From contig JAUIIL010000001.1 in assembly GCA_030431635.1 (NCBI GenBank), positions 248,001 through 312,000 of the forward strand: a DNA stretch of 64,000 nt. The letters run 5' to 3'. Position 1 is the first letter of the stretch. The number at the start of each line of letters is the position of its first letter. The notes under the pieces are model-generated. The model worked only from the letters and a program-made list of their open reading frames with translations, made no database searches and was not told where the DNA came from. This document shows, piece by piece, positions 1 through 30,117 of the stretch. This DNA comes from Bacteriovoracia bacterium. Lineage in GTDB: Bacteria > Bdellovibrionota > Bacteriovoracia > Bacteriovoracales > Bacteriovoracaceae. A program made the position numbers and the translations under genes.

Positions 1-618
1 ATCGACTTGTTTAACGATGGTAAAAAATCCTCTTGCATTGAGTTCTTTAAAAGTGTGAACCATTCTTTTGCAATGAGGACAATTTGAGTCGTAATACATC
101 GTGAACGCATACTTAGCGTTATCTACATTTAATTCTGGAACTTGCTCAAGCCTGTTATTTACGAAAGCAATTTGTTCATCTGATACATTGAGATTTTTCT
201 TTTTGTAATCGGCAAAAGCTTTTATGAATCTCTGCCTTGCTTCATTTCTAAGCTGTACCCATTTCTCAAAGTTCTCAATATTTTTCTCAGTAGGATTTCT
301 TGTTGCCTCCATTAATGGGGCTGGTGGCAAATGATTTCCTTCTTTAAAAAACTCATCATTTTTTATGTCCAGATACTTGTTCCAGTTAAATTTATCTCCT
401 TCCTTTTTTTCAGTGGTGACTTCTTTAGTTTCTACTAATGTCTTCTTTTCCTCTTTGCCCCAAAAAGAAACTCCATCATCAAAGTATTTAAGTTCATCTG
501 CATAAGAGTTATTTGAAAACAATACAAAAAATAGTGTTAAAGAAGATAGAATCCCCAATATCATTAGTAGAAAAAGCTTAATCTCGATAATGACTTCTTT
601 TCGATTATCTTTATTCAA
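1..618 (-). CDS. TraF-like conjugal transfer thioredoxin (partial, C-terminus outside window)
   Basis: The visible 206 residues hold an N-terminal hydrophobic anchor or signal (about 15-36), a linker rich in charged residues, and a thioredoxin-type CPHC pair at residues 180-183 following a beta strand (FTMYY). The NPT...EN segment near 108-116 and the overall order fit the TraF (PF13728) family of periplasmic conjugation proteins that handle disulfides during pilus assembly. The start is a TTG preceded by a strong GGAGG nine bases upstream and overlapping the end of the ATPase gene; an ATG at codon 19 is the alternative. The reading frame runs off the window. DsbC-like isomerase of the TrbB type is a second possibility. 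Confidence 0.72.
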   Translation of the reverse strand, partial: MNKDNRKEVIIEIKLFLLMILGILSSLTLFFVLFSNNSYADELKYFDDGVSFWGKEEKKTLVETKEVTTEKKEGDKFNWNKYLDIKNDEFFKEGNHLPPAPLMEATRNPTEKNIENFEKWVQLRNEARQRFIKAFADYKKKNLNVSDEQIAFVNNRLEQVPELNVDNAKYAFTMYYDSNCPHCKRMVHTFKELNARGFFTIVKQVD

Positions 619-1804
619 TTTCAATGACCTCCTTAAAACAGACAAGTCCATCCTCAATCTTTGATTGAGCAGCACTAAAAAAGTCTGCTTTATATTCGTG
701 AAGTGATTTTTCTGAAGAAAACTCAAAACTTTGAATTTTCTCTAAATCTAGGTAGTCAATAATTGAAAGCTTTCCAATGGAACCTAGATTTTTGCAATGT
801 TCACAGCCAGAGGCATTTAGAACTCTTGCGTTTTTAACTTTTCTCTTCTCTGCCTCTTGTATAAGAAATTCTTCCTTGGATTCTTCAAGAGGAATTGAAC
901 AGCTTGGACATAGTTTTCTCAAAAGTCTTTGAGCTGCAACAAATTTGAAAACTTCTTTAATTTCGCTATTGGAAATATTTTGTCCGTTAAGTAGATTTTT
1001 GAACTTCAATATTGAACCAATTGGCGAATTTGCGTGGATGGTACTCAAAACTAAATGTCCACTCTGGCCACCGCTATAAGCTTCTTTAGCTGCTTCCGAG
1101 TCTCTTATTTCACCAAAGAACAAAACGTCAGGGTCTAGTCTTTTTGCCTGTTTTAATCCATCTGAAAAAGAAAGTTTTTCATTAATAGGAACTTGAACTA
1201 ATTTGTCATTTTCAATCTCAATAGGATCTTCAAAAGAGATAACTTTTAATGAATCTAAGTCTATTTCATTAAGTAGTGAGTGAAGAGTCGTTGTTTTTCC
1301 ACTTCCTGTACCACCTGAAATTAAAATGATTCCATTCTTAAAATTAATTGCTCTTTTTAGAGCATCTGACGTTTCTTTACTGAAGTTTAATTTATCCAAT
1401 TGTAAACTGATTCCAAGCTTACTTATCCGATAAACAATCATGTCTTCAAACTTAGTGCCGATAGTTGCCCATCTGACTTTGATTCCTAATTCTGGATATG
1501 AGGCCTCACCATTTAAAGCTTTTCCTCTTTTTGAAATAGGAATGTTTGAAAGCCTCTTTGCTTCGTTAATAAAACCTTGAGTATGCTTTTTTTCAATCTC
1601 CTTATATGTAAACAGCATTTTATCGACTCTAAGCCTTATGAGAGTTTTTTCTTTCTTAGGCTCTAGGTGTATATCACTGGCATCAAAATCAATTGCTGCT
1701 TTTAAAATTTCTTTAAAAAGCAAAGTGTAAGGAGCAGTAGAACGTAATCTTTCGTCTAGCGTAACTCTTTTTTCTATAATGATTTTTGAGTTTTCTTTCA
1801 TCAT
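611..1804 (-). CDS. GspE/PilT-type secretion ATPase of the conjugation block
   Basis: A hexameric type II/IV secretion ATPase expected on the cytoplasmic face of the transfer machine. Visible motifs are the N2-type signature ASDIHLEP (42-49), Walker A GGTGSGKT (164-171), the Asp box FEDPIE (191-196), the Walker B region ending GEIRD (231-235), the His box around STIHAN, and a C-terminal four-cysteine zinc site (CPSC then CEHC). Those cysteines and SDIHLEP make it GspE/PilB/PilT-like rather than classical VirB11. The length of 397 is short because the N1 domain is missing. Its ATG-ATG start overlaps the stop of the coupling-protein gene; the second ATG (1801) has better ribosome-site spacing. 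Confidence 0.85.
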   Translation of the reverse strand: MMKENSKIIIEKRVTLDERLRSTAPYTLLFKEILKAAIDFDASDIHLEPKKEKTLIRLRVDKMLFTYKEIEKKHTQGFINEAKRLSNIPISKRGKALNGEASYPELGIKVRWATIGTKFEDMIVYRISKLGISLQLDKLNFSKETSDALKRAINFKNGIILISGGTGSGKTTTLHSLLNEIDLDSLKVISFEDPIEIENDKLVQVPINEKLSFSDGLKQAKRLDPDVLFFGEIRDSEAAKEAYSGGQSGHLVLSTIHANSPIGSILKFKNLLNGQNISNSEIKEVFKFVAAQRLLRKLCPSCSIPLEESKEEFLIQEAEKRKVKNARVLNASGCEHCKNLGSIGKLSIIDYLDLEKIQSFEFSSEKSLHEYKADFFSAAQSKIEDGLVCFKEVIEIE

Positions 1805-4800
1805 AGACCTCTACAAACTCCCTTAATCATTTCTAAAGTTGCCTTAATGTATGGAAGAAATGCCCAATCAACACAGCAACTTACTTTTTTGTAAGTTCCA
1901 AACAAATGTCCTGTGAGTTTTCCTGAAGTAATACGTCCAATTTCATTAACTCCCTTTGGAAGTTCTAAAATTGACATATTTTGTCCCTCTCTAAAGCATT
2001 GAGAGGATTTTGGGTAAATCATTTGCCATTTTTCATCAGGACTAGAAGGAGTATTTCTTAATACTTCAGAACTAATTGATTTCATCCTAGATGCGATCAT
2101 CATAGCTCCTGTTGTTTGATTGACTCCGTTGTAAACTCCATGTCTGGGATAGAATAGGCCCCAGCCATTGCAAGCACTGTGATTACTTGGTGGGTATTGA
2201 GGCAACCAATCCATAGGATAGCCACAACCACCTTCGCCGCCGAAAGTTGCTTCACCGCCGCCAGAAACACTCATAGCAGCCCCTTTGATTATGCAAGCCT
2301 TTGGAGCTAATGACCAAGCTAAGAATCTTGGTTGAAGCTTATCTGCTGCTCCTGTTTTCCAATTCATACCTAAATGCTCACTCATTCCGTCAAAGCACAT
2401 TTTATCTGTTCTTTGACCGCCGCATGGTAAGAATGAAAAAAGCCAGCTTAAAGGCATTGCAAGTACATGGGAGTGAAACGAATATGCATCGTGGTCACTT
2501 TCAGCACCATAAGGAATTGCTTTTTCCTTTACCGTTGCTACAAGTTGGGCCGCTGCCGCAGGAAGGGCCTTAAAGTAGCTTTCTCCTGCATTTGGAAATA
2601 CTTCCATAAAAGTATTTGGAAGATAGTAGCTTACCCTCACACAAGGTCTTGGAGGCAAAGGCCAAGGAGATTTACACCAGCAACCTTTTGTTTGAAAGTC
2701 TAAACATGAACTATATTGAGCCGTTTTAACTACAGAACAAATAGTAGGAAACAAAGAGGCTGTCATGGCCTCATTGCTCCACATGGCCACAAAAAGGCAG
2801 AAACAGGCGACTGTTTCTGAAAGGCGGGATAGTAGATGTGAGTGGCATTCTTTTTTATCTTCTAAGAATGTTGGTTTCAGAAATATTTTCTTAAATGTTG
2901 TTTCAACACCATTGAAAACATATCCGATCATTTCAAACTTCTTTAGTTTAAATAAATCGTCTCCTTGAATAAAATCTTCCTTGTATGTACTTTTGCTCAC
3001 AGATTCAGAAACATTTCCTCTCCCTGATTCAAGGTTTCTAGTCATGGGATTTCTCACGGCATTTTGAGTAGTTTCAGATACACTATGGCTTTCTCGTTGT
3101 TCTTCAACTTTTCCACCAACAATTTTAAATAAATTAATGGTTTTCTCGTCTGAGGTTTGACCACTAATAATTGTTTTAAAACATTGTTTTATAACATCAG
3201 TTGTTACTTCTGCCTTTAGAGCATCTTTTAATGTACTCATACTCTGTGTAGCAGCAATAACAATAGACTTAGCTTCTCTTCCCTTGGATAGAAATGTAGA
3301 GTCAGATAAGCCGTTATTAGATGCTGTTACCCAATCTTGCATTTCATCTCCAATCAAAACCGCAGGAACCGATTCTTTTTTCTTCTTTTTCCTTTTCTTG
3401 TTTTGAGTTGTTTTTAATCTATCTAAAATAATTCTTTGATAGAGCGTTTTTATAAAGATAGAAGCTGGTCGAGATAAACCTTCTTTATTAATGTCTAAGA
3501 TAATGACATTTCCACCATTGACTACTTTCTCTAGGTTTTTAATTGTAAGTTCTTCTTCACTTGGGCAAAAAAGACGATGAGCTTTATACTCGTTGAATAT
3601 ATCAAGTAGTAAAGTAGCAGTTGCCATGACTCCTGTTTTAACTTTGTCATCAAGTGCATTGTATTCTTTCGTGAAAAATCTCAGAGCCGCATTGATATTA
3701 AACTTTTCTTCTTCATCAAAGTCCTTTGATTCAGTTAAAACATTTTGTAAATCTGTTCCAAGTGTAGCCACTTTTTCAGAATCTATTGCAGATAAAATCG
3801 TTTCATAGACATTTGAAAGAGTGAAATACCTATAAATTGCAGCACAATAAACAATACAATATTTTATTAGTGCTGTTGCTTTTGTGTCCCAAAATGGCGA
3901 GTCGCCAGAACTTCCTTGAAAATTCGCAGAAGCGACTCTGACGTAATCAGCAACTTCGACAAAGCCAGAATCTTTTAGAATCTTCTCTTTATACACAGGG
4001 TTTAAAGTTACATTACCTTCAAGATGAATATGGTAAATCTTCTTTTTGGAAACTTTTTTTTCTTTCAAGAGTTTAAGTAGAAAAGAAGAAAAATTCCCTT
4101 TAGTATCCAATGCAAGAATTGTTGGAAACTTATCAAAACTGGATAATATTTGATCTATTGCTGGTTTAATTATTCCACTTGTTTTACCGCTACCAATAGA
4201 ACCAAATGCCAAAAGGTTTCCATATAAACCAGACAAAGGAATTTTCACCCATCCTTTACCTGATTTATCATTAAACTTGCTATTTTCCTCATTCACAGAG
4301 CCTAAAACGATTGAATTTTTTGCTTCAGGAAAGTCTGGTAATTCTGACTCTTTAACTTTTTTGAATAACTTTTTTAGCAACATGGCCAAAGGTAAAAGTA
4401 CAATTGAGAAAGAAAGTGCTAAGTTAAAACGAAAGATAAATGTTAAATACTTACATAACTCTATAAAGCTAATGTTATATGTCCTGAACACAGGATATTT
4501 TGAGAGGTCTGTTAGCAAGTAACTAAACAAAAATAGAAAAATGAAGATCATTGAGATATGAAATTTCTTTTTTCTAATTTCTTTGATTTCACCTGTTAGT
4601 ATTTTTAATCTTGTTCCTTGCTTTCTAATTCCAAAGAACAAAGAACCAAAAAATGAGTAAAGTATAATATTGACGAATGAGACTCCGCCAAGAGTAAGTA
4701 GTTTCTGTTCGTTCACATCGAGAAATCCCATCAGTTCACTAAGATTCATTAAATCTTTGTTAGAAATCACTAAAAAACCCAATCCAAGAAAAGCAATCAC

Positions 4801-4851
4801 TACTAATACGATTAGTAGTGATGGCTCATTCGTATTTTTTTCTTTTTCCAT
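1801..4851 (-). CDS. VirD4/TraD coupling protein fused to a TraU-like C-terminal domain
   Basis: One uninterrupted frame of 1016 residues. The N-terminal part has several membrane segments (about 11-30, 55-75, 99-115, 136-160), then a coupling-protein ATPase with Walker A GSIGSGKT (217-224) and Walker B VLIGDE (498-503), which should bring substrate DNA to the secretion channel. From about residue 670 the sequence changes: a signal-like hydrophobic stretch (678-698) is followed by a cysteine-rich region with GCWCKSPWPLPPRPC and a closing CCVDW, resembling F-type TraU/PFL_4710-like proteins, which are normally separate periplasmic proteins. The TraU-like DNA is visibly GC-richer than the rest. 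The TraU identification rests on motif resemblance only. Confidence 0.75.
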   Translation of the reverse strand: MEKEKNTNEPSLLIVLVVIAFLGLGFLVISNKDLMNLSELMGFLDVNEQKLLTLGGVSFVNIILYSFFGSLFFGIRKQGTRLKILTGEIKEIRKKKFHISMIFIFLFLFSYLLTDLSKYPVFRTYNISFIELCKYLTFIFRFNLALSFSIVLLPLAMLLKKLFKKVKESELPDFPEAKNSIVLGSVNEENSKFNDKSGKGWVKIPLSGLYGNLLAFGSIGSGKTSGIIKPAIDQILSSFDKFPTILALDTKGNFSSFLLKLLKEKKVSKKKIYHIHLEGNVTLNPVYKEKILKDSGFVEVADYVRVASANFQGSSGDSPFWDTKATALIKYCIVYCAAIYRYFTLSNVYETILSAIDSEKVATLGTDLQNVLTESKDFDEEEKFNINAALRFFTKEYNALDDKVKTGVMATATLLLDIFNEYKAHRLFCPSEEELTIKNLEKVVNGGNVIILDINKEGLSRPASIFIKTLYQRIILDRLKTTQNKKRKKKKKESVPAVLIGDEMQDWVTASNNGLSDSTFLSKGREAKSIVIAATQSMSTLKDALKAEVTTDVIKQCFKTIISGQTSDEKTINLFKIVGGKVEEQRESHSVSETTQNAVRNPMTRNLESGRGNVSESVSKSTYKEDFIQGDDLFKLKKFEMIGYVFNGVETTFKKIFLKPTFLEDKKECHSHLLSRLSETVACFCLFVAMWSNEAMTASLFPTICSVVKTAQYSSCLDFQTKGCWCKSPWPLPPRPCVRVSYYLPNTFMEVFPNAGESYFKALPAAAAQLVATVKEKAIPYGAESDHDAYSFHSHVLAMPLSWLFSFLPCGGQRTDKMCFDGMSEHLGMNWKTGAADKLQPRFLAWSLAPKACIIKGAAMSVSGGGEATFGGEGGCGYPMDWLPQYPPSNHSACNGWGLFYPRHGVYNGVNQTTGAMMIASRMKSISSEVLRNTPSSPDEKWQMIYPKSSQCFREGQNMSILELPKGVNEIGRITSGKLTGHLFGTYKKVSCCVDWAFLPYIKATLEMIKGVCRGL

Positions 4852-5017
4852 AATTAATTACTCTTTTTCTTTTTTTTGTAGAAGTTAGTAGTTCTTGAAG
4901 TCCGTCTCTTAGTTGACCGAGCCTTCGTTTGAGCTTTTTATTTTCATCTTTTTCAACATCAGAAATGCATTTTTCAAATTTATTCAATTCTCTTAATAGT
5001 AAAGTTGCTGCTGACAT
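4826..5017 (-). CDS. Small basic protein upstream of the coupling protein
   Basis: A 63-residue, highly charged protein with a predicted helical N-terminal two thirds and a very basic tail (KKRKRV, GKRKKYE). Its ATG has a strong AGGAGT ribosome site and shares a base with the stop codon of the preceding 56-residue gene; its own end overlaps the coupling-protein start by 26 bases, so translation is probably coupled. I do not recognise a family. The position just before the coupling protein and the basic tail allow a relaxosome or DNA-binding accessory role, but that is inference. Confidence 0.6.
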   Translation of the reverse strand: MSAATLLLRELNKFEKCISDVEKDENKKLKRRLGQLRDGLQELLTSTKKRKRVINYGKRKKYE

Positions 5018-5187
5018 TAATACTCCTTTACCTCTACAAAGTTTTGAGGCTTTAAATTTAAAACTGCTTCAATTCTAATAATTCGCTCCATTAGCTCTAC
5101 ATTGCTTAAGATTTCTTCCATCGAAAGAAGTCCACAGATTTCACGAAATTTGTTTTTTAATTCTTCCCATTGATTTTTTAGTTCCAT
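5017..5187 (-). CDS. Small helical protein of the conjugation block (56 aa)
   Basis: A 56-residue frame starting MELKNQWEEL and ending VEVKEY. It has a good ribosome site (GGAG, spacing eight) and its TAA overlaps the ATG of the next small gene by one base, the same arrangement as its neighbours. The protein is charged and mostly helical, without membrane segment or cysteine pair. No family recognised. The tight coupling and ribosome site are the reasons for calling it a real gene. Confidence 0.55.
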   Translation of the reverse strand: MELKNQWEELKNKFREICGLLSMEEILSNVELMERIIRIEAVLNLKPQNFVEVKEY

Positions 5188-5199
5188 CTTTAACTCCTT

Positions 5200-5412
5200 C
5201 TAGTAACCCATTATTCTTCTTCCATGATGAGTATGCTTGGGTATGTACTTCCCAGAATTAGGCAACTCACTAATTAATGTCAGCAGTGCAATAAGTGCAA
5301 ATGCCATTAGCCAAAAGGCGAATACTCCTTGAATAATCCTTACTCCATCAAACCTTGAAACAACTTGAGTAATTTTTTTGTTAAATTTGTTTTCACATTC
5401 TACGTTTTCCAT
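5200..5412 (-). CDS. Small single-pass membrane protein of the conjugation block
   Basis: Seventy residues with a charged N-terminus, one clear membrane segment (about 27-47) and a C-terminal tail rich in His, Lys and Arg. AGGAG sits five bases before the ATG. It lies between a 45-residue secreted peptide and the 56-residue protein, in the same direction and with gaps of about ten bases, so it belongs to one transcript. Small one-helix proteins near conjugation genes are often pilus or channel accessories, but no family can be named. Confidence 0.55.
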   Translation of the reverse strand: MENVECENKFNKKITQVVSRFDGVRIIQGVFAFWLMAFALIALLTLISELPNSGKYIPKHTHHGRRIMGY

Positions 5413-5421
5413 TTTTTCTCC

Positions 5422-5559
5422 TTACAAAGTCGCAAACCTTCCATTGCGAAAAAGTGATTTAATAATTTCCCCATCATTTTTATTGGCATTAGTTTTTGGA
5501 TTCCCAAAAATAGCCAAGCAGGTAATTAAAACTAATAATAAAATCGTTAGCCTTTTCAT
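5422..5559 (-). CDS. Very small secreted or anchored peptide (45 aa)
   Basis: The frame begins MKRLTILLLVLITCLAIFG and has a lysine-containing N-terminus plus a hydrophobic core typical of a signal peptide; the mature part is only about 25 residues. A purine-rich AGGGGG precedes the ATG. The cysteine within the hydrophobic stretch (ITCLA) could be a lipobox, although the spacing is not ideal. It sits in line with the other small genes of this block. No function can be assigned. Entry-exclusion proteins of other plasmids are similarly small and membrane-linked, which is only an analogy. Confidence 0.45.
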   Translation of the reverse strand: MKRLTILLLVLITCLAIFGNPKTNANKNDGEIIKSLFRNGRFATL

Positions 5560-5566
5560 TTGCCCC

Positions 5567-5818
5567 CTAAAGCCTGTTAAGTGTGTAGTAATACTTCAGC
5601 ATTGTTTTTTCCTTTTCTTGTTCGATAAATTCATATCGTGGACAACTTAGAAAAAAGTCTTTTAACCATTGAAGAAAAGAGAATTGGCTTTTTGTTGAAG
5701 TGGATTTCTCTTTTTTCAAAAGCTCGAAAGATAGATGGTTGTCTAGGCTGTCTGGCAACTCAAAATCGAATTTACGTTTTTGAGTTGCATGAAGATAAGT
5801 TAAGTACCAAGCGTTCAT
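5567..5818 (-). CDS. Small hypothetical protein, first gene of the leftward conjugation transcript
   Basis: The start chosen is the ATG at 5818, which has AAAGGAG seven bases upstream; a start 21 bases earlier lacks a ribosome site. The 83-residue product is soluble, aromatic-rich and charged, with no recognised domain. It is the gene nearest the divergent intergenic region and would be first in a leftward transcript running into the small proteins and the coupling protein. Confidence 0.45.
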   Translation of the reverse strand: MNAWYLTYLHATQKRKFDFELPDSLDNHLSFELLKKEKSTSTKSQFSFLQWLKDFFLSCPRYEFIEQEKEKTMLKYYYTLNRL

Positions 5819-6020
5819 TAATGCTCCTTTGAAAGCCATTTAGTTTACGGTTGGCCAATAGAGCATGATTGATGCCAATTTTAAGACGCATTGAATTAGA
5901 AAAGCTGAGTTTGGGAATTATATTCTTATAATTCAGATAGTTATGAATTATTTTTACGAAGTTAGAGCTTATGAAAATTCATATAAATATTACATTTAAG
6001 TCTAAAATGAACTGTGCTTA

Positions 6021-6070
6021 GGTCTTTTTTAGACTATATACATGGTCTAATTTGGACTATCAAAAAGTCT
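6021..6070. promoter_or_regulatory. Tandem palindromic operator-like repeats in the divergent intergenic region
   Basis: The 309 bases between the leftward conjugation transcript and the rightward sensory operon contain no gene. Two 17-base direct repeats, GGTCTTTTTTAGACTAT (6021-6037) and GGTCTAATTTGGACTAT (6044-6060), differ at three positions and lie exactly 23 bases apart. Each is itself an imperfect palindrome, and a further half-site AGTCT follows at 6066. The remainder is AT-rich with a short TTGCT/AGCAA inverted repeat at 6090-6105. This is the expected look of a cooperative operator controlling one or both divergent transcripts. The binding protein is unknown. Confidence 0.55.
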
Positions 6071-6127
6071 GAAATAGATTGTTAATAGCTTGCTTTAATC
6101 AGCAAACAATATTAGAAGAGCTGCAAC

Positions 6128-7549
6128 ATGAAGACTGAAATTACAAAAAAAATTTATGAACAAAGAGCGAATGTATTACTTATCGAAGATGATAGGCTTA
6201 TTAGTCGTTCATTTAAAATGAAAGCAGAAGAGTTCGCAAATATTGATCAAGCTTTTACATTTAACGAAGCACTAAAAAAGTTGAAATTAAATGAAAAACG
6301 CTATGATATTGTTTTCGTTGATTTAAATTTAACTCCAAATTTAAAAAAATTAGAAAATGAAGGTCTTCAACTTATCCCAGAAGCAAAAAACACTGGTGCA
6401 ACCGTAGTTGTACTATCTAGCATAGATGATTTAGAAGTTAAGCGGAAAGCAATGGATTTGGGGGCATCTCATTATTATGTAAAGCAGAAGCTTGCCGCTG
6501 ATGTCGTTGGCCACTTAAAACCATTAATTCTCAGCTCTGATTCGAGAAGAATAAATTTGTTTTTTACTCATCAATATAAAACTTTTGATTTTGAATTAAT
6601 TGAAAGATTTAAAGAAGTTGTAAGAATGGGACTAAATTTTTCCGATCATGTCATTATAAAGGGGCCTACTGGTGTTGGAAAGTCATTACTTGCAAAGAGC
6701 ATCCACTTGTTTTGTGGTTATCCAGAAAGTGATTTTTTTCATTTATCTATTGGGGATATGAAAGATGAATTAATTGAGTCTGAACTATTTGGCCATAAGA
6801 AAGGATCTTTTACAGGTGCAACTGAAAATAAAATAGGCTTATTGGAAAGATGTAATGAAAAAACACTTTTTATCGACGATATTGATTTACTAGACAGTAA
6901 GACGCAAGGAAAATTATTAGTATTTTTGAGTCATGGTACATTTTCAAGAGTTGGAGAAACGACAACTAGAAAGTCCAAAATAAGATTAATAACAGCTACA
7001 AATCAAGATGTTGAAGTCTTGATAGACAAAAAAAGTTTCAGAGAAGACTTTTATTCAAGAATTAATAAAAGAGAAATTTTGATTAAACCTCTCGCTGAAA
7101 GACGCGATGATATTCAATTATTATTAGAAGATTACATCAAAAACTCATCTCCCGAAATTATCATTGATGAACCAGCAAAGAAATTTCTGATAGACCACTA
7201 CGATTACCCTAGAAATGTAAGAGAGCTTGAAGGTGTTGTTGCCGATCTTCAATCTATTGAAGGTCGGATAACCCTTAGCAAACTACCTAAAAAGCTACTT
7301 AAAAATAAAGAAGATGATTTGAAAAGTAAAATTAGAGTAACCAAGGCAATGCAACAATTCGCAGAGGAACAAGGGTTGAATAATCTAATAGACTACATAG
7401 AAGAGTTTATAGTTTCAGAGGCTTTAAAGAAAAATGAGGGAAAGTACACACCAGCTAGGAATGACTTGAAACTCTCTGGATCTAAAATAAGAGGAATAAT
7501 TAAGAGAATTGATGAGAAAAATATGAATGGAGGGAATATCTATGCATAA
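6128..7549 (+). CDS. NtrC-family sigma-54 response regulator
   Basis: Three domains in order: receiver (about 14-135; acidic pocket EDD at 20-22, phosphoacceptor Asp65 in VFVDLN, Lys119), AAA+ sigma-54 activator (Walker A GPTGVGKS 179-186, loop GSFTGA 226-231 in place of the usual GAFTGA, Walker B LFIDD 247-251, arginine-finger region FREDFYSRIN), and a C-terminal Fis-type helix-turn-helix. It should activate sigma-54 promoters after phosphorylation, most probably by the histidine kinase ending the same operon. It heads six overlapping genes. The Ala-to-Ser change in the sigma-contact loop is conservative. The target promoters are not evident. Confidence 0.88.
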   Translation: MKTEITKKIYEQRANVLLIEDDRLISRSFKMKAEEFANIDQAFTFNEALKKLKLNEKRYDIVFVDLNLTPNLKKLENEGLQLIPEAKNTGATVVVLSSIDDLEVKRKAMDLGASHYYVKQKLAADVVGHLKPLILSSDSRRINLFFTHQYKTFDFELIERFKEVVRMGLNFSDHVIIKGPTGVGKSLLAKSIHLFCGYPESDFFHLSIGDMKDELIESELFGHKKGSFTGATENKIGLLERCNEKTLFIDDIDLLDSKTQGKLLVFLSHGTFSRVGETTTRKSKIRLITATNQDVEVLIDKKSFREDFYSRINKREILIKPLAERRDDIQLLLEDYIKNSSPEIIIDEPAKKFLIDHYDYPRNVRELEGVVADLQSIEGRITLSKLPKKLLKNKEDDLKSKIRVTKAMQQFAEEQGLNNLIDYIEEFIVSEALKKNEGKYTPARNDLKLSGSKIRGIIKRIDEKNMNGGNIYA

Positions 7550-8480
7550 CTTAAAAGCTATACATGAGCTAGATTCCGAATTTGACTATATTAAGCATAA
7601 AGTTGGCACTACCACATCAAGGCTAACAAGCATTTTAATGAATCTTCAAGATAAAGAATTTATCTTAGAAAGTGAAAATGTCATTTTTTCTGAAATAGAG
7701 TCTTTCAAAAAAAACTTCGCATCATTGATTTCTTCTTATCGAGACGAGAAAGAATTATTATCCCCAATATTAAAACAAATTAGATTATTAGAAAGTGATA
7801 ATCCATCTATTGACGAGCTGACCGCCTTTTTTCATAAACTTGCAGAAGTGAAATCTATATTTGGTGCTAATTTGGAAATTTCAAAATTAGATTCTTTTCA
7901 AAACGCAAATATCGTTGCAACTTTATGGAATCAATTTTCAGAATTTATGCCTAAGTTTTTATCTTCCATTGCAAGTGGTTATGTCGATAATGAAGAAAGA
8001 TTCAGTGCTGTTCAAATTGCATGGGAAGAGCTTGGTGAAGGAAATAGAAATAACATTCATGCTAAAATATTTCGAGATGCTGTTGAGATGTTAGGTATTC
8101 AAACTTCATTGACAGGAATTAATTGTGAATCTTTAAATATTTTAAAAAATTTCCTAGTAGCATCTCCATCCGACAAAGAAAGATTAGGTATTGGTTTAGG
8201 CTTAGAAATCATGGCAAATGAAAATATAAGTACACTATTTAAGTATAATTGCTTTAACAAAGATAAGAAAATAAAACTTGCACAATCTGATTTTTTTAAA
8301 ATTCACTTCAAAAATGAAGATGAGCATATAGCTTCAAATATTAAAAACTTTACTTTTTGTAAGTCAGATAAAGATAAGCTTGATTTTATCAGAGGTTTCA
8401 AGGTGGGAGTTAAATTTTGGACTTCATTTTGGGATGAAGCCCTAAACTATATCGCCATGTTCGGCCAAGGAATACAATGA
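7542..8480 (+). CDS. Hypothetical helical protein of the sensory operon
   Basis: I chose the ATG at 7542, which has GGAGGG seven bases upstream and overlaps the preceding regulator gene by eight bases; an in-frame ATG at 7527 lacks a ribosome site. The 312-residue product is predicted soluble and largely helical, without signal peptide, membrane segment or recognisable catalytic motif. It overlaps the permease gene by four bases (ATGA). Its fixed place between a sigma-54 activator and a permease suggests an intracellular adaptor or regulatory partner, but I do not recognise the family. Confidence 0.7.
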   Translation: MHNLKAIHELDSEFDYIKHKVGTTTSRLTSILMNLQDKEFILESENVIFSEIESFKKNFASLISSYRDEKELLSPILKQIRLLESDNPSIDELTAFFHKLAEVKSIFGANLEISKLDSFQNANIVATLWNQFSEFMPKFLSSIASGYVDNEERFSAVQIAWEELGEGNRNNIHAKIFRDAVEMLGIQTSLTGINCESLNILKNFLVASPSDKERLGIGLGLEIMANENISTLFKYNCFNKDKKIKLAQSDFFKIHFKNEDEHIASNIKNFTFCKSDKDKLDFIRGFKVGVKFWTSFWDEALNYIAMFGQGIQ

Positions 8481-9730
8481 GCCAGAAATATACATTGTGG
8501 GATGGAATAACAAGAGCAATCGGCTCCGTAATTGGTAGTGGTATTCTCTTTTTACCATCTTATACATTTGCAATTGCTGGCGGTGATGTACTAATCGTTT
8601 GGGTTCTTACAATTCTTCTTTGTATTCCCGGCCTTATATTTCTATCTGATATGGTGGAGGCAGTACCTAACAATAGTGGAATGGGAGGTTTTATTTCACT
8701 AGGGCTTGGTAAGCACTTTGGAAATGCCCTGCCAATGTTAATGTTATCAACCGTATGCTTAGGAATGCCCTCAGCAGCTTTAATTTCAGGTAAATATATC
8801 TCAAACTTTTTCAATAGTATCAGTATTGGTTTTTCTTTCGTCCAATATATTACAGCTCTTATAATTATCTGGTTTGCTGTTTTTTCAAATCTTAAAAATT
8901 TAAAAACCAATTCAAAAATCAGTACAATCCTCACAGTTCTTTTATTAGTAATTGCAGCCGCATTGTTTTTTATGACTTTTGATACTGCAAATGGAGATTA
9001 CCACAAAATAAAACCTGTATATAATATTTCAGCGATTTCTTCAGGCGTAATTTTAGCATTTTGGGCATTTGCTGGGTTTGAAAACCTTACTTTTATGGCT
9101 AGTAAATTTAAGAACCCGAAGAGGGACTTATTTCTTTCATGCTCTCTAGCGATTCTCATTTGTGGAGCTTTGTATTTGGCCTTAACTGCGAATTATGCTG
9201 CAATAGTGGATAGTAACCACTTTGATAAATTAGCAGGCCTATATTATCTATCTGAGTATGTTACTCCCAAAACATTATCAACTTTGGTTATATCTTTGTT
9301 TGCTTTATTTGCAGTTCAAATAAATTTCAACTCTTGGATTGAAGGAATCTCAGGTATGGTTCAGGCATCTTCAAACGAAGGTTATCTTCCAAAGTTATTT
9401 TCTAAAGTAGATTCTAATAATAATCCCCACAATGCTATTTTTGGAATTGGAATTGTATTCACTATAGTTGCGACATTTGGTTTCTTCTTTCCGTCTATCT
9501 TTGAAAAATTCTTAAAAACAGTTGCAACTAATTTTGTGTATATGTATTTGCTTGCGATTCTTGCATACTTTGTAAGATCAAAATTAGGATTAAAAAAAAT
9601 CTTGAGTCTGATGTTTTGTGCTGGCCTCGTATATGTATTGTTATCAGATATTAACTATATCTATTACCCAATAGTGGTAAGCGTATTAGCTATTATCCTC
9701 TCGATGAAGAAGGAGCGACAATATGCTTAG
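8477..9730 (+). CDS. APC-superfamily amino-acid permease
   Basis: A 417-residue inner-membrane protein with about twelve hydrophobic segments. The first segment carries the helix-breaking motif GSVIGSGILFLP typical of amino acid/polyamine/organocation transporters, and the sixth contains FWAFAGFENLTFMA, the substrate-binding region of this family. It is most like small YjeH-type permeases. The substrate cannot be read from the sequence. The neighbouring periplasmic binding protein and gamma-glutamylcyclotransferase-fold protein point to an amino acid or glutamyl compound. The start overlaps the upstream stop as ATGA and the end overlaps the next gene by eight bases. Confidence 0.85.
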   Translation: MSQKYTLWDGITRAIGSVIGSGILFLPSYTFAIAGGDVLIVWVLTILLCIPGLIFLSDMVEAVPNNSGMGGFISLGLGKHFGNALPMLMLSTVCLGMPSAALISGKYISNFFNSISIGFSFVQYITALIIIWFAVFSNLKNLKTNSKISTILTVLLLVIAAALFFMTFDTANGDYHKIKPVYNISAISSGVILAFWAFAGFENLTFMASKFKNPKRDLFLSCSLAILICGALYLALTANYAAIVDSNHFDKLAGLYYLSEYVTPKTLSTLVISLFALFAVQINFNSWIEGISGMVQASSNEGYLPKLFSKVDSNNNPHNAIFGIGIVFTIVATFGFFFPSIFEKFLKTVATNFVYMYLLAILAYFVRSKLGLKKILSLMFCAGLVYVLLSDINYIYYPIVVSVLAIILSMKKERQYA

Positions 9731-10394
9731 TATTTTAAGTCAAAGAGCTTCCAAATATTCCTTAACAGCAATTTTAAGTTTATTAAAAAAAATGAACATG
9801 AACAAAATAAATCATCCAACAGAGTATTATTTTGGATATGGAGCGAATTTAAGTACTGAAAGATTTCAAAAGAAAAATATGGCTGTTGAAGACTTTGGAA
9901 TTGCTGAGTTGAGAGATTATAAAATTAATTTTTCCTTACCAACAGAGTCAATTGGTAAAGGATACGCAAGTATTGAGCCATCAAAAAATGATATTGTTTA
10001 TGGCAAACTTTTTAAAATAAGTAAGCTATCACTAGTTCTTCTTGATATTATGGAATGGGTTCCATATCGCTTTTACGATAGAATAAAAGTTACTATATAT
10101 TCAAATAATAAACAGATCAAAAACGTCAATGTTTATATAGCAAGCTTCCCCAAAAAAGGCTTGAAGCCAACAAAGACATATCTCCATAACATTATTAAAG
10201 AATCAAAGAGATTGAAGTTCCCTCAGAGTTATATTGAAATGCTTGAGAAGGTAGAATACGGAGATAATTTTAAGCTCGACTCAGGCTTCAGGCTTTCACA
10301 TACAGGCAAAAGAAGATTGTTTGAAAAAAGATTGGCTGCACTCTATTTGAAACATGATAAATTGCGAGACATAATCGCTTCGAGGCTACCATGA
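9723..10394 (+). CDS. Gamma-glutamylcyclotransferase-fold protein
   Basis: After a 30-residue N-terminal extension the sequence shows the family signature FGYGAN (37-42), a strand pair ending in VYGKLFKI, and the conserved acid in LDIMEWVPYRFYDR (Glu111), which matches the catalytic glutamate position of the GGCT/AIG2 fold. Such enzymes release 5-oxoproline from gamma-glutamyl amino acids or glutathione-derived peptides. The usual YGSN serine is alanine here, as in some family members. The start has AAGGAG eight bases upstream and overlaps the permease gene; a later ATG at 9792 is possible. The context suggests handling of a substrate imported or sensed by the operon. Confidence 0.75.
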   Translation: MLSILSQRASKYSLTAILSLLKKMNMNKINHPTEYYFGYGANLSTERFQKKNMAVEDFGIAELRDYKINFSLPTESIGKGYASIEPSKNDIVYGKLFKISKLSLVLLDIMEWVPYRFYDRIKVTIYSNNKQIKNVNVYIASFPKKGLKPTKTYLHNIIKESKRLKFPQSYIEMLEKVEYGDNFKLDSGFRLSHTGKRRLFEKRLAALYLKHDKLRDIIASRLP

Positions 10395-11518
10395 AAATAT
10401 CTATTTTATTTCTCTCCTTAGTTTTTTCGTTCTCAGGCTTTGCACAAAAAGTAAATGTACTTTCTGTCTGGAATACAAGGGGAACAAGGCAAGTAACTCC
10501 TGCATTGTTATACGAGGGAATGAATCTTGCACTAAAGAAATTTGATAATAAAATTAATCTTATTCCAGTGGACACTGACGGTACATATAGAAATGTCCAA
10601 GAAGAAGTAAACAAAGCTATTGAGAAATATAAACCTGTTCTGATTGTTGGGGCAATTACTTCAAATATGGCTTTATTCATTAGTCAAATAGCTGAGTCGA
10701 GAAAAATTCCCTTTATTACACCTTTTGCAACACTTCCAGAAGTTACTAAAAATAAAACTTATACTTTTAGAACTTGTTGGAACGATATTCAGCAAGCAGA
10801 TATACTTTTACAATTAATAAAAGAAGATCAAAAGCTAAAAAGTGGAGTGATTCTATTTAATGCTTTTCATTCATATAGTATAGGCTTAAAAAACCAATTT
10901 TTAGGTGCAGCATCCAGATATGGTGTAAAGATTGCGGATATTTTTGAATTTAAAGACTCCAAAGACATCACACCTGAAATAATTAAAAAAATTAATGACT
11001 ATAAAGTAGATTTTATTTTTCTTCCTACATACCAAGTTGAAGCCGCTTCTATTATCAAAAACCTTGCGAACAAACTAAGTAGTGAAACTCGATATATTGG
11101 TGGGGATAGCTGGGGTGGAGGTAGGCTTTTTCATAATAGAATTGCTGAATTGCCCACAAAGCTACACGGTTTTTATGTGCAACATTATTCGAGTGAAAGT
11201 AAAGATGAAGCTAACTTGAAATTTTTATCTCAACTTGATGAAAAGGCTTTGTATGAAAAATTTAATAAAACTCACAAAATAAGTTCAACTGCAATGAGAG
11301 CACCTATTGCGATTGGATATGATTTAATACGTTTTTCGATTAAGGCATTATCATCAAAAAGTAGTCTCATTGATTCAATAAAAAATACATCGCTAAATGG
11401 TGCAACTGGATCTATGAAGTTAGGGAAAGAAAATACTCCTATAAGTAAACCTATTCATGTTTACAAAATTTCAAATGATGGCGAGAAATATTATAAAACA
11501 ATAAGGCCTAAAATATGA
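10391..11518 (+). CDS. Periplasmic type-1 ligand-binding protein (branched-chain amino acid type)
   Basis: A signal peptide (MKISILFLSLVFSFSGFAQ) leads into a Peripla_BP_6-like fold: an N-terminal lobe with EGMNLALKKFD, the PVLIVGAITSNMALF strand-loop typical of ABC branched-chain amino-acid receptors, then PFITPFAT and a second lobe with YKVDFIFLPTYQVEAA and GGDSW. No ABC permease or ATPase genes are near, so it probably acts as a sensory receptor for the histidine kinase encoded next, with which it overlaps by four bases, or feeds the APC permease. The ligand is unknown; amino acids or amides are usual for the family. Confidence 0.82.
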   Translation: MKISILFLSLVFSFSGFAQKVNVLSVWNTRGTRQVTPALLYEGMNLALKKFDNKINLIPVDTDGTYRNVQEEVNKAIEKYKPVLIVGAITSNMALFISQIAESRKIPFITPFATLPEVTKNKTYTFRTCWNDIQQADILLQLIKEDQKLKSGVILFNAFHSYSIGLKNQFLGAASRYGVKIADIFEFKDSKDITPEIIKKINDYKVDFIFLPTYQVEAASIIKNLANKLSSETRYIGGDSWGGGRLFHNRIAELPTKLHGFYVQHYSSESKDEANLKFLSQLDEKALYEKFNKTHKISSTAMRAPIAIGYDLIRFSIKALSSKSSLIDSIKNTSLNGATGSMKLGKENTPISKPIHVYKISNDGEKYYKTIRPKI

Positions 11519-13449
11519 CTACGTTTTTTAGAAGAAACAGGCAGATACTTAGGATTGTTGGATTTCAACTTGTCCTTCTAGCATTAATGGCTGGTATCAT
11601 TGTCATTGGTTTTAGCTTCTATGAAAGTGATATTAATAAGTCTAGGATTCAAGAAGTATTAAATCCCATTGCAGTGGAGCTAGAAGAAGAACTATTTGTT
11701 CTTTCTCAGCTATCAGGAGTTAAAGAACCACATAGTGCACATAATTTTATCAAGTTTCAAAACAAATTAAATTCAAGCAACATTAGTGCTACTTCAAAAA
11801 TAACATTTTGTTCCGACTCTGAAATTTATGACTTTAAATTTCAGATCTTAAAATCACCTTCATTGTGTATATTTGTCCAAACTACAAATGAACACCTCTC
11901 ACTTTATTTTTATGCTTTCTCAATAGCATTTCTATTGCTAATCGTTTTCTCTTTGCCAATGTATAAATACTTTCTTAAAGAAGCTTCAAGTCGGGCAACA
12001 CTAGAAGCAAAATCAGAACTAGCAGACAAGGTTGTTCATGGTGTTGGATCACCTTTGGCACGCTTTGAACTTTTACTTGAAGATATAAAAGGAAAGCTTG
12101 AGTCTTCTGACTATAAATTTCTTCAATCAATTTATGATGATTTCCGATACCAGTTTTTAAAATTATCTTTCAACGATTACTCAACAAATAAAGAAAGAAG
12201 AAATGTTGACCTTTTTTCAATTGCAAGTCTTACTTCCTATAACAAAATCAAAGAATTTGAGAATGATAATAAAAAAGTTGATATAATTTTTGATCAAAAT
12301 AATAAAAAAGGACTTTTCAGTTATGTTAATCCAAAAGTCGTCGAGGAGGCCTTGGATAACATCATAAATAATGCTTATGATGCTATTTCTTATACAGGCG
12401 AAATATGCATCAAGATATGCCAATCTAACAATGTGGGCATAATTCAAGTTTCAGACAATGGTAAAGGAATACCAAGCGATAAGCTTGAAGCGATATTTGA
12501 TAAAGGGTTTTCTACAAAGAAAAAGACTCCTAAGTCTGGAATGGGAATGGGGCTTTATCAAGCAAGGAAGGAGTTAGCTGAAAATGGAGCTTCAATTAAG
12601 GCGACTTCCACTCATGGTAAAGGAACAACTATTTCAATTACATTTCAATTGTGTAAGCCACCAGTTTGGTATGTAAATGAATTAGACTTGAAAGATTTCG
12701 ACAATGTAGTTTTAATTGATGATCAAATTGGAATGAATGACATAGACCCTTTGTCAAAGCAATTAAAAGCAAGATTAAAAGCTCTTAACATTGGGTTTAT
12801 AGGGTTAGAAAGTAAGGAATCATTAGAAAAATACTTGTGTGACAAAAAATCTTCGGAGAAAAATTTCTATCTTGTGGATTTGGAATACCAAAATGAAGAT
12901 TACACAGGGATAGACATTATTGCCAAGTTCAATCTTGAAAATTCGGCAATCTTTACTTCGGTATCTTACTCAAGTGAGGCTTATCAAAAATGTGAAGATT
13001 TAAAGATTAAACTTATTAGAAAACATCAAATTAATAGCTTTAATTTCTTCAACTCATCATTACAGAACAATAAAGACAAAGTAAAAGTTGTAATGGTTGA
13101 CAATGATAAGTTCTTATTAAAGGCTGCTAAAAATATACTCGAAAAAAGAGGATTCCTTTTTATTGATTATGACAGCCCAAGGAAGCTTATTGATGATTTA
13201 TGCTGTATAGATAAAGATTCTATAATTTTGTATGACCATGATTTTGGAAATGGAGAAATTACGGGAGAAGAGCTTTTGAATATACTGATTGAAAATAAAT
13301 TTAGGCAAGATAGAGTTGTCTTAATCTCTGCACTTGCCGATAAACTCATCCAAAAGTATAAAACCAAGACACTTGCTGCCTCTAAGCATAATTTTCAAAA
13401 TATCATTGATGTTGTTAGCGAAATGAGCCAAGGCCATGTTATTCAATAA
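11515..13449 (+). CDS. Membrane hybrid histidine kinase with two C-terminal receivers
   Basis: The 644 residues comprise TM1 (about 12-34), a periplasmic domain of about 95 residues, TM2 (about 130-150), a phosphoacceptor helix with His175 in VVHGVGSPL, an HATPase domain (N box NNAYDA near 285-290, G1 DNGKGI 314-319, G2 GMGMGL 342-347), then two receiver-like domains with candidate phosphoacceptors Asp455 and Asp574/576. It should sense the adjacent periplasmic binding protein and phosphorylate the sigma-54 regulator that opens the operon. The two receivers are divergent but keep acidic and lysine positions, so a phosphorelay or phosphate sink is possible. Its end overlaps the convergent receiver gene by 11 bases. 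Confidence 0.87.
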   Translation: MTTFFRRNRQILRIVGFQLVLLALMAGIIVIGFSFYESDINKSRIQEVLNPIAVELEEELFVLSQLSGVKEPHSAHNFIKFQNKLNSSNISATSKITFCSDSEIYDFKFQILKSPSLCIFVQTTNEHLSLYFYAFSIAFLLLIVFSLPMYKYFLKEASSRATLEAKSELADKVVHGVGSPLARFELLLEDIKGKLESSDYKFLQSIYDDFRYQFLKLSFNDYSTNKERRNVDLFSIASLTSYNKIKEFENDNKKVDIIFDQNNKKGLFSYVNPKVVEEALDNIINNAYDAISYTGEICIKICQSNNVGIIQVSDNGKGIPSDKLEAIFDKGFSTKKKTPKSGMGMGLYQARKELAENGASIKATSTHGKGTTISITFQLCKPPVWYVNELDLKDFDNVVLIDDQIGMNDIDPLSKQLKARLKALNIGFIGLESKESLEKYLCDKKSSEKNFYLVDLEYQNEDYTGIDIIAKFNLENSAIFTSVSYSSEAYQKCEDLKIKLIRKHQINSFNFFNSSLQNNKDKVKVVMVDNDKFLLKAAKNILEKRGFLFIDYDSPRKLIDDLCCIDKDSIILYDHDFGNGEITGEELLNILIENKFRQDRVVLISALADKLIQKYKTKTLAASKHNFQNIIDVVSEMSQGHVIQ

Positions 13450-13831
13450 GCTTGGCCAACCCAATTTTATCTAATACACCTTTTAATTTTTTTTCATTAG
13501 TGACAATATCGTTTTTCTTAATATAAAAAAAATGTGAGTCATTAAAAAAATCTTTAAATTTATTCTTTTCCATTGAAGTCAACATTACAAAGTTTATCTC
13601 TTTGTTTTTTTCTCGAATTTTCTTATATAAAGAGATTCCATCACCATCTTTAGTTTTCATATCATAGTCTGATATTATTAAATCAAATCTAGTGGAATTG
13701 AATTGCTCTTCACCATCTAGGCCATTTACGGCCTGAATCACAAAGGGTTTTGGAGAAAGACTTTCTAATTTTTCGACTACTGAATCTCTAATTAAATCAT
13801 CGTCTTCACAATACAAAATTCTTAATTGCAT
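13439..13831 (-). CDS. Single-domain response regulator (CheY-like)
   Basis: A lone receiver of 130 residues with the acidic triad CEDDD (8-12), phosphoacceptor Asp55 in LIISDYDM and a lysine pair in YIKK. There is no output domain, so it probably works by protein contact or as a phosphate shuttle. It lies 14 bases downstream of the methyltransferase gene in one transcript and converges, with an 11-base overlap, on the hybrid kinase, its most obvious partner. Confidence 0.85.
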   Translation of the reverse strand: MQLRILYCEDDDLIRDSVVEKLESLSPKPFVIQAVNGLDGEEQFNSTRFDLIISDYDMKTKDGDGISLYKKIREKNKEINFVMLTSMEKNKFKDFFNDSHFFYIKKNDIVTNEKKLKGVLDKIGLAKLIE

Positions 13832-15602: not shown

Positions 15603-15649
15603 TTTACAATTTTGTCGCCTATGGATAATATACTGGGGTATAGTATATT
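15603..15649 (+). promoter_or_regulatory. Promoter with RcnR/CsoR-type G-tract operator for the metal repressor-exporter pair
   Basis: A candidate -35 TTTACA (15603-15608) and -10 TAATAT (15626-15631) are 17 bases apart. Overlapping the -10 is a perfect inverted repeat AATATACT (15627-15634) and AGTATATT (15642-15649) around GGGGTAT. An ACT-G-tract-AGT arrangement is the known operator type of RcnR-like repressors. Binding here would block RNA polymerase until metal loads the repressor. Confidence 0.72.
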
Positions 15650-15660
15650 TGAGACGTAAA

Positions 15661-15939
15661 ATGGCACATGTTTTTGAAGATAAAAAAAGAATTACATCAA
15701 GAATAAAGCGAATTAAGGGGCAGCTTGAAGCTGTTGAGAGAGCATTAGATGAAGGCAAAGATTGTTTTTCAATCCTTCAGACTCTATCGGCCTGTCGAGG
15801 TGGTCTTAATGGACTTATTGGTGAACTAATTGAAGGCCATATTAAAGACCACGTAATGATAAATCCAAGTCAGCCAAAATCTGATCAAGATAAGTCAGCC
15901 CTTGAACTCATTAAACTTATGAAAACTTACTGGAAATAG
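15661..15939 (+). CDS. dmeR: RcnR/DmeR-like metal-sensing repressor (CsoR/FrmR family)
   Basis: An all-helical tetrameric repressor of 92 residues from the ATG at 15661 (a start twelve bases upstream is less likely). Counted from this start, the metal-binding set is His3, Cys35, His60 and His64, the ligand pattern known for the Ni/Co sensor RcnR and different from the copper set of CsoR; position 3 as histidine also supports the chosen start. The arginine-rich helix ITSRIKRIKGQLEAVERAL is the family hallmark. The gene lies ten bases upstream of a DmeF-like exporter, matching known dmeRF operons, and its promoter carries the expected G-tract operator. Confidence 0.85.
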   Translation: MAHVFEDKKRITSRIKRIKGQLEAVERALDEGKDCFSILQTLSACRGGLNGLIGELIEGHIKDHVMINPSQPKSDQDKSALELIKLMKTYWK

Positions 15940-15948
15940 GAAAAGTAT

Positions 15949-16872
15949 ATGTCTCATCAATCACACACTCATGATCACGATTATGTAATTCAAGATAGTA
16001 AAATAGGATCAAATGAAAAAAGAACAATCTTAGTTGTTATATTAACCTTTATTACGATGATTGTTGAAGTCTCTTATGGATATATAACAGGTTCTATGGC
16101 CCTATTGGCAGATGGTTGGCATATGGCAAGTCATGTTGGAGCATTAGGGATTTCCGTAATTGCATACCGATTAGCTCGTTCTAAAAAGTTGAATGAGAAA
16201 TTTACTTTTGGTGCTGGGAAATTTATTCCTCTTGGGGGCTACACTAGTGCTCTAATGTTAGGCCTTGTAGCTATTTTTATGGGAGTTGAATCCTTTGAAA
16301 GATTTTTAAATCCAACTAATATTAACTTTTCTACAGCTATCAATGTTTCAATTGTTGGCTTGATCGTAAATCTACTTAGTGCTGTTTTATTATGGAACTC
16401 TCATGAACATCATCATCACGACCATGAGCACTCGCACGATCATGTTCATGACCACAATCACAAGAGTGCATTAATTCACGTTATTGCGGATGCCTTAACC
16501 TCAGTTTTGGCAATATTTGCATTAATTCTTGGTAAATACTTTGGTTGGAACTGGGCCGACCCAATAATCGGGATTATAGGCTCAATAGTCATTTTGAAGT
16601 GGGCCTATAGCCTTTGCAAAGCTACTGTTTGGGAAATCCTTGATGGAAATTCTCAAGTCATTGGAAAAGATAAGATAAAGGAAATCTTTAAAGAGAATGA
16701 AGACGTAGAAATTACTGATTTACATATTTGGAGAATAGCTCCAAATGCTCATGCTTGTGAGGTCATGATTTACAATAACAATCCAAGAGGGAGTGAATAT
16801 TACAGAGATAAAATTCAAAAAAAATTTAATATTGAGCATCTTATAATTGAAGAAAGAACCTGCTCTCATTGA
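15949..16872 (+). CDS. dmeF: Cation diffusion facilitator, DmeF-like Ni/Co(/Zn) exporter
   Basis: An inner-membrane cation/proton antiporter with six membrane segments. The metal-site motifs are LLADGWHMASH in the second segment and HVIADALTSV in the fifth. A histidine-rich N-terminus and a long His/Asp loop (HEHHHHDHEHSHDHVHDHNH) between segments four and five are typical of DmeF/ZitB-type transporters. A cytoplasmic C-terminal domain ends in CSH. It is co-transcribed with the RcnR-like repressor, so export of nickel or cobalt is more likely than zinc alone. Confidence 0.85.
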   Translation: MSHQSHTHDHDYVIQDSKIGSNEKRTILVVILTFITMIVEVSYGYITGSMALLADGWHMASHVGALGISVIAYRLARSKKLNEKFTFGAGKFIPLGGYTSALMLGLVAIFMGVESFERFLNPTNINFSTAINVSIVGLIVNLLSAVLLWNSHEHHHHDHEHSHDHVHDHNHKSALIHVIADALTSVLAIFALILGKYFGWNWADPIIGIIGSIVILKWAYSLCKATVWEILDGNSQVIGKDKIKEIFKENEDVEITDLHIWRIAPNAHACEVMIYNNNPRGSEYYRDKIQKKFNIEHLIIEERTCSH

Positions 16873-16950
16873 ATACGGTTAAGTTAATATTTAACGAAAT
16901 TGATGAAAAAAATGAGCCTAAGCTATATTAAGGTGTTAAAATTACTATAA

Positions 16951-17466: not shown

Positions 17467-17541
17467 AATTCGTTTATCTCCCTGAAAGTTCATAGAGATT
17501 AAACAAAAATCACCTACAAAATACAATTTTTTCACTAAGAC

Positions 17542-17566
17542 ATATATCCCACTACTAGATATATCC
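17542..17566. promoter_or_regulatory. ATATATCC direct repeats upstream of the efflux operon
   Basis: Two exact ATATATCC octamers start at 17542 and 17559, 17 bases apart, about 50 bases before the first efflux gene and followed by an AT-rich TATAGA that could serve as a -10. They may mark a regulator site for the LuxR-type protein encoded just upstream. Short repeats in AT-rich DNA can occur by chance. Confidence 0.3.
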
Positions 17567-17617
17567 TATAGAAATACTTGGTTTTATTGCGATATGTTGT
17601 AGTCACAAAAAATATTA

Positions 17618-18868: not shown

Positions 18869-18880
18869 AGGACAGTAAAA

Positions 18881-21251: not shown

Positions 21252-21252
21252 G

Positions 21253-21693: not shown

Positions 21694-21700
21694 TGATTAA

Positions 21701-29959: not shown

Positions 29960-30117
29960 AATCAAAAATCCTCCTTTTTAGATTCTGAAAAACGTGAAAT
30001 CAGTTCTTGTTTTGCTCTTTTTCAATTCGCTTCTGAGCGTTTTTCTGCCAGCGTACACTCCCTTATGAAAACGAGAGTTTAACTATCCAAAGCTCAGAAA
30101 TGGGTGACGATTGTTTT

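Follow-up and report, generated by a model that had tools for sequence, protein, structure and literature searches.

A six-gene cassette with a putative diiron-oxygenase signal synthase as the likely switch of conjugative transfer in a Bacteriovoracaceae mobile element

What does a six-gene sensory operon do when it stands back to back with the transfer genes of a mobile element? The operon considered here lies on an integrative and conjugative element (ICE) of a Bacteriovoracia bacterium (family Bacteriovoracaceae), within a window of 64,000 nucleotides that covers positions 248001-312000 of contig 1 of a 3.3-Mb genome. The preliminary description of this DNA had read it as six overlapping genes that form one operon and one sensory unit on an ICE in a predator-type bacterium, and our analysis bears this out: the six open reading frames (ORFs) share the + strand and overlap at all five junctions, by 8, 4, 8, 4 and 4 bp. 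The most likely job of this six-gene kit is to turn on the element's transfer machinery, and we propose, with a probability of about 0.6, that the cassette is a self-contained, ICE-borne small-molecule pheromone or quorum system that controls transfer. The genes of the cassette are as follows.

6128..7549, + strand: gene 1, sigma-54-dependent response regulator (RR54), with a receiver, an AAA+ domain with GSFTGA loop and a C-terminal DNA-binding region
7542..8480, + strand: gene 2, haem-oxygenase-like diiron oxygenase (HDO), proposed signal synthase (PF14518, 1.3e-8)
7542..7793, + strand: helical hairpin at the N-terminus of gene 2, bearing His19, a DHp-like candidate phosphotransfer domain (alignment, hhalign, AlphaFold2)
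8477..9730, + strand: gene 3, APC-superfamily permease, proposed signal exporter (AA_permease_2, 1.8e-28)
9723..10394, + strand: gene 4, GGCT/AIG2-fold protein, proposed second, tailoring enzyme (AIG2_2, 1.5e-10)
10391..11518, + strand: gene 5, LivJ-type periplasmic binding protein (SBP), proposed signal receptor (Peripla_BP_6, 5e-18)
11515..13449, + strand: gene 6, membrane hybrid histidine kinase (HATPase_c, 3.7e-20)

The first ATG of gene 2 lies at 7527; we set the start at 7542, because GGAGG precedes the ATG there, and this start yields the 8-bp overlap with gene 1. The gene had been listed as an unknown helical protein in a set of no described composition, a view that overlooked its HDO domain, which belongs to a family making small molecules, known quorum signals included. 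Judged by alignment and structure prediction, the gene 2 product is an HDO with all six metal ligands. Specifically, residues E163, H173, E222, H255, E259 and H262 are unchanged in 14 HDO homologues, and the AlphaFold2 model (pLDDT 86) adopts the alpha-helical haem-oxygenase fold, matching the structures of CADD-like, BesC, HrmI, SznF and UndA (Foldseek probability 1.00) as well as PolF. The closest PDB entry in a profile search is BesC (E=7e-5). The ligand spacing (E-x9-H and H-x3-[DE]-x2-H) is the same as that of the essential residues of SznF, E215/H225 and H311/D315/H318 (PMC11705231), and the 3H/3C ligand set is the hallmark of the superfamily (PMC13108848). Thus the window HDO shares fold and ligands with BesC, SznF, HrmI, UndA and CADD, but differs from them as a new subfamily by sequence, with a His-bearing hairpin fused to its N-terminus. 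E227 was considered as a seventh ligand (3H/4C) and rejected, since L020 has Gln there (L and G numbers denote the loci and genomes compared); a search for plasmid relatives of gene 2 found none. All HDOs characterised to date are biosynthetic, their products including antimetabolites and metallophores (PMC13108848), and the cluster for the quorum signal valdiazen contains the HDO HamA (PMC5878181). Since the family makes small molecules, quorum signals among them, the signal that the cassette senses is most likely made by the cell itself and derived from an amino acid, with the HDO as its proposed maker.

The other genes suggest how such a signal could be finished, exported and perceived. The HDO would act together with the GGCT-fold protein of gene 4 or, in a second subtype of the cassette, with an SDR-family enzyme; gene 4 aligns with human gamma-glutamyl cyclotransferase (GGCT, 3.6e-11) over YGANL and LDxxE, the latter conserved. 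The APC permease, whose best NCBIfam model is NF008245 YjeH (143 bits, under the cut-off of 284), would export the molecule. As had been recognised earlier, the gene 5 protein is a receptor of the amino-acid-binding type, with a profile match to 3td9 at 2.5e-41. Its residues S91, T114 and D239 are conserved and align with positions that we take to be amino-acid-binding in LivJ-type proteins, and therefore the ligand is probably amino-acid-like. This receptor would bind the molecule and dock on the hybrid kinase, as the protein families suggest, together with the fusion of APC permease and SBP into one ORF in several relatives (L012:2315-4669, L046:10080-12437 and, on a truncated contig, L016:1203-3233; in L048 a frameshift has probably split the fusion). 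The kinase itself carries H175, an HATPase domain at 275-379 and two receiver-like C-terminal domains, and its H-box column is invariant across 18 kinases. Of the earlier call of a hybrid kinase with two receivers, the kinase part stands, and the receivers are weaker: one has a Pfam match of only 0.03, and the other is indicated by a hybrid-kinase NCBIfam match together with residue inspection. Gene 1 matches Sigma54_activat (3e-46) and Response_reg (1e-7) and has both the GSFTGA loop and Walker A; it agrees with NtrC-type activators in receiver, AAA+ domain with GAFTGA loop and the presence of RpoN, which was found in 11/11 genomes checked.

The step that links kinase and regulator may be supplied by the hairpin of gene 2. 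In the window and in L010 the HDO carries a helical hairpin of 70-90 residues fused ahead of it, which in most relatives forms a separate ORF of 62-71 aa between the regulator and enzyme genes. Among nine aligned hairpin sequences the single invariant column is a His, His19 in the window. The hairpin profile aligns with the kinase DHp domains of the same loci, His on His, with an hhalign probability of 91 and a score of 34, against a top score of 12 in 60 column shuffles and 10 reversed controls. AlphaFold2 predicts two helices, residues 4-34 and 38-84, and a Pfam search for an HPt domain in the hairpin gave no match, only HisKA at 0.02 for L011. By its likeness to the phospho-acceptor domain of kinases, the hairpin may be the missing phosphotransfer step, and phosphate would pass from the kinase His to a receiver, from there to the hairpin His and finally to the receiver of the regulator; all of these residues are present. 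The kinases of L014 and L015 have no receivers, and both loci also have neither regulator nor hairpin.

What would the regulator act on? The cassette is divergent from a transfer operon, which runs on leftward beyond the window in L054 (contig 228001-248000) with TrbI, TraC, MobC, relaxase and tyrosine integrase genes. The flanks of the cassette hold the following features.

1..5839, - strand: head of the conjugation operon, with TraD/TraU-like 1801-4851, VirB11-like ATPase 611-1804 and small ORFs (Pfam)
5862..5878, - strand: sigma-54 -24/-12-like promoter TTGGCATCAATCATGCT, top-scoring in the gap, 22 bp ahead of the ATG at 5839 and facing the transfer operon
5999..6074, no strand assigned: inverted AGTCTAA/TTAGACT half-sites, candidate enhancer (repeat search)
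13439..13831, - strand: stand-alone receiver, convergent with the kinase gene (Response_reg, 3e-11)

A scan for sigma-54 promoters, of the kind that the preliminary description had advised, places one at the head of the type IV secretion system (T4SS) operon, pointing into it; the earlier idea that the cassette switches transfer is supported as probable. Five or six cassettes stand back to back with T4SS operons (window, L010, L011, L012, L046 and L048, the last two being near-copies), and in 6/6 the top -24/-12 site of the gap between regulator and T4SS faces the first T4SS gene with a score of at least 23. The sites are TTGGCATCTTGATTGCT in L010, CTGGCACACCCATTGCC in L011, TTGGCATGGGTTTTGAA in L012 and TTGGCACTGGCCTTGTA in both L046 and L048. 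A correctly oriented site scoring at least 22.5 is located within 300 bp of 16/21 T4SS heads, whereas among 316 starts of other genes the share is 6.6% (Fisher p=2e-13, an optimistic value because the 21 loci include related ones). The predicted sigma-54 control of the transfer operon is well supported by these sites. So, by promoter position, orientation and recurrence, is the step in which the regulator, bound at an upstream enhancer, would fire the sigma-54 promoter of the divergent T4SS/relaxase/integrase operon; the outcome would be density- or partner-dependent conjugation. The half-sites at 5999-6074 are a plausible, if only suggestive, enhancer for the regulator. The HDO operon of L014 has a sigma-54 site of its own. 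The ICE could not be delimited on its right side, as a search for att repeats shared by the integrase end and the window gave two chance 16-mers only. Within the operon head, 1801-4851 is a single ORF of 1016 aa that joins a TraD/TraG-like coupling protein part to a TraU domain; a 1025-aa ORF occupies the same place in L125 (8779-11856).

Recurrence of the gene set, on which the sensory-unit reading had been staked, is evident. Searches of 143, 129 and 369 genomes together with GTDB contigs yielded about 14 cassettes in Bdellovibrionota, mostly in Bacteriovoracaceae, with one or more further families represented (L014, G110). Their members share as little as 25-40% identity, and this recurrence at low identity, in other genera and one other family, rejects a chance assembly of six genes. 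The exact six-gene set is also present in G083 (L010+L149). The order RR54-HDO-APC-GGCT-SBP-kinase is found in the window, G083 and L011, the last with an extra Cupin_5 gene, and L020 has a GGCT-type order with the hairpin as its own ORF; the order RR54-hairpin-SDR-HDO-APC-SBP-kinase is found in L012, L013, L046 and L048. L014, L015 and L047 are without the regulator, L034 is a decayed cassette with a truncated HDO, and weak HDO matches (L035, L036, L041-L045, at most 29 bits) were set aside for want of a surrounding cassette. Each complete cassette holds exactly one of GGCT and SDR, with SDR in half of the cassettes; GGCT is rejected as a constant core, since SDR takes its place in one subtype. 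Additionally, the binding-protein tree separates the GGCT- and SDR-type cassettes with 97/96 support, the pattern expected of a matched signal and receptor.

Related transfer operons without an HDO, collected by TraC/VirB4 searches, carry a sigma-54 regulator, kinase and binding protein at the T4SS head with different chemistry. In L130:2014-8025, L131:698-6881 and L132:1396-7508 the cassette comprises the sigma-54 regulator, a secreted protein of ~170 aa ending in EGTVCI or GGTICF, SBP_bac_5, YcaO and the kinase; these cassettes are possibly peptide-pheromone-like, with azole-modified C-terminal peptides that would control conjugation. L118-L122 and L123 contain SBP_bac_5, kinase, regulator, an alpha/beta hydrolase and a secreted protein of 115 aa whose conserved C-terminus reads GRQNPGI, GRMNPGI or GEPGI, in this order and co-directional with the T4SS. 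The similar cassette of L124:3699-9700 encodes a radical SAM enzyme along with a secreted protein of 121 aa, and that of L125 an MFS transporter. Contig 11 of the window's genome carries a second ICE (L133), in which the genes for a regulator, an ankyrin-containing protein of 959 aa and a kinase are divergent from a T4SS. Strong sigma-54 sites lie ahead of the receptor gene in L118, L119, L121 and L122, and several comparison ICEs have such sites also before the regulator or receptor operon, which is what autoinduction would need. L010 and L117 have T4SS DNA that is 67% identical over 2510 bp, while their cassettes differ and the regulators are only 27% identical; the same T4SS with swapped cassettes suggests that the HDO cassette is one exchangeable chemotype among those that can occupy a signalling slot. 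We regard it as an even bet that Bacteriovoracaceae ICEs carry modular mating-pheromone cassettes in one slot beside a sigma-54-controlled transfer operon, as a new class of Gram-negative conjugation signalling. In some of these cassettes the signal would be a modified peptide, made from a precursor by a YcaO, radical SAM or hydrolase enzyme and read by an OppA-like receptor; in the window type it would be an oxidised amino acid from an HDO fused to the relay's phosphotransfer domain, with a LivJ-like receptor.

The foremost alternative, close to the earlier proposal that the operon senses amino acids or gamma-glutamyl compounds from prey, is a nutrient or prey sensor, in which the LivJ-type protein would sense amino acids in the environment or gamma-glutamyl compounds set free by lysed prey, the permease, GGCT and HDO would import and degrade the ligand, and kinase and regulator would switch transfer. 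We judge this weaker rival unlikely. It draws on the amino-acid-binding positions of the receptor, the APC permease and the homology of gene 4 to the human enzyme, yet the SDR-type cassettes manage without GGCT, so gamma-glutamyl sensing is not a constant theme. Receptor clades follow enzyme content, the characterised HDOs are biosynthetic (PMC13108848), and related ICEs fill the slot with peptide-precursor and modifying-enzyme cassettes typical of self-made signals; these points outweigh the predatory-type host family, and a self-made signal is more likely. The HDO might instead serve as the input, being a diiron protein that responds to O2, iron or a metabolite and gates the relay through the hairpin, with permease and SBP as a transceptor. 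The His hairpin-HDO fusion in the window and L010 and the APC-SBP fusions would suit this, but it is improbable given that most relatives encode the hairpin separately, with other enzymes (SDR, cupin) in between, and that L014 and L015 have an HDO without hairpin or sigma-54 regulator. A third reading, in which the operon would make an amino-acid-like antimetabolite or metallophore for secretion, sense it as feedback and neighbour the T4SS only by hitch-hiking on the ICE, is hardly to be expected, since, although HDOs make both kinds of product (PMC13108848) and some cassettes lie away from T4SS genes, sigma-54 sites face the transfer operon in each of the six loci next to a T4SS and the alternative slot cassettes keep the regulator/receptor logic with other chemistry.

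Several observations weigh against a self-made signal that governs transfer. Protein families, catalytic residues, recurrence and the placing and direction of the promoters can be read from the sequence; self-signalling itself is inferred, as are product, ligand, export direction, the route of the phosphate and the effect on transfer, and APC permeases can import. Many of the source data are metagenome-assembled genomes, and the sigma-54 site weights are our own rendering of the known consensus. The DHp resemblance of the hairpin is weak for each individual sequence, a Foldseek search with the hairpin structure returned nothing useful, and the hairpin of L018 is without the His. No sigma-54 site was found ahead of the signalling operon in the window, so positive feedback is not seen here. 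Finally, no T4SS was found in the DNA examined around L013, L014, L015, L020 and L047 (about five cassettes), which means that conjugation is not the sole use of the cassette.

Element-borne signals that govern their own transfer include TraR/TraI of Ti plasmids and symbiosis ICEs and the peptide pheromones of Gram-positive plasmids and ICEs. The cassette would resemble these, as its putative signal genes lie on the element and the predicted target promoter lies at the T4SS head, with relaxase, TraC and integrase genes downstream; it would differ by a predicted phosphorelay that acts on a sigma-54 promoter in a Gram-negative, by periplasmic-binding-protein receptors and by exchangeable synthesis cassettes. 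The LuxP-LuxQ-LuxU-LuxO system of Vibrio autoinducer-2 signalling combines a periplasmic binding protein, a hybrid membrane kinase, a His phosphotransferase and a sigma-54-type regulator. Judged by its gene content of binding protein, hybrid kinase and sigma-54 regulator, the cassette works like this system but is not homologous to it as a system. Its receptor is of the LivJ/Peripla_BP_6 type and not LuxP-type, no HPt domain is found by Pfam, and the hairpin is DHp-like rather than LuxU-like; proposed synthase and exporter share the operon, LuxS is absent and the target is a T4SS operon. The ham/mgo/pvf diazeniumdiolate quorum clusters, whose extracellular signal derives from an amino acid, likewise contain an HDO, HamA (PMC5878181, PMC10194917), the likeness being an HDO within the operon, with signal production here proposed. 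Unlike them, the window operon encodes no nonribosomal-peptide-synthetase-like HamD (A-T-R), AurF-like HamC N-oxygenase or HamE among its proteins, and it has a dedicated binding-protein/kinase receptor, with transfer genes as the likely target. Literature searches (sigma-54/ICE/Bdellovibrionota; peptide pheromone/Gram-negative ICE) found no matching system among open-licence papers.

If the proposal holds, predatory-type bacteria time ICE conjugation by several chemical languages that can stand in for one another, one of which rests on a new HDO-made signal and thereby a new signal class, and Gram-negative ICEs gain a counterpart of the Gram-positive mating pheromones. It would also reveal a phosphotransfer hairpin that can stand alone, joined in the window to the putative synthase, and would open ICE transfer in Bdellovibrionota to experiment.

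Further features of the window lie to the right of the cassette. The lone receiver at 13439-13831, a possible side branch of the relay, has a homologue with 39.6% identity in another ICE, L124 (2169-2579). The stretch 15649-24829 is likely cargo: it holds a cation-efflux (CDF) gene, directly preceded by a small ORF (15649-15939), and also encodes outer-membrane efflux proteins and a pump of the AcrB/CzcA type. A RES-domain protein (26003-26812) and a double helix-turn-helix protein (29318-29965) are possibly toxin-antitoxin related, and 38246-47686 is a single ORF of 3146 aa.

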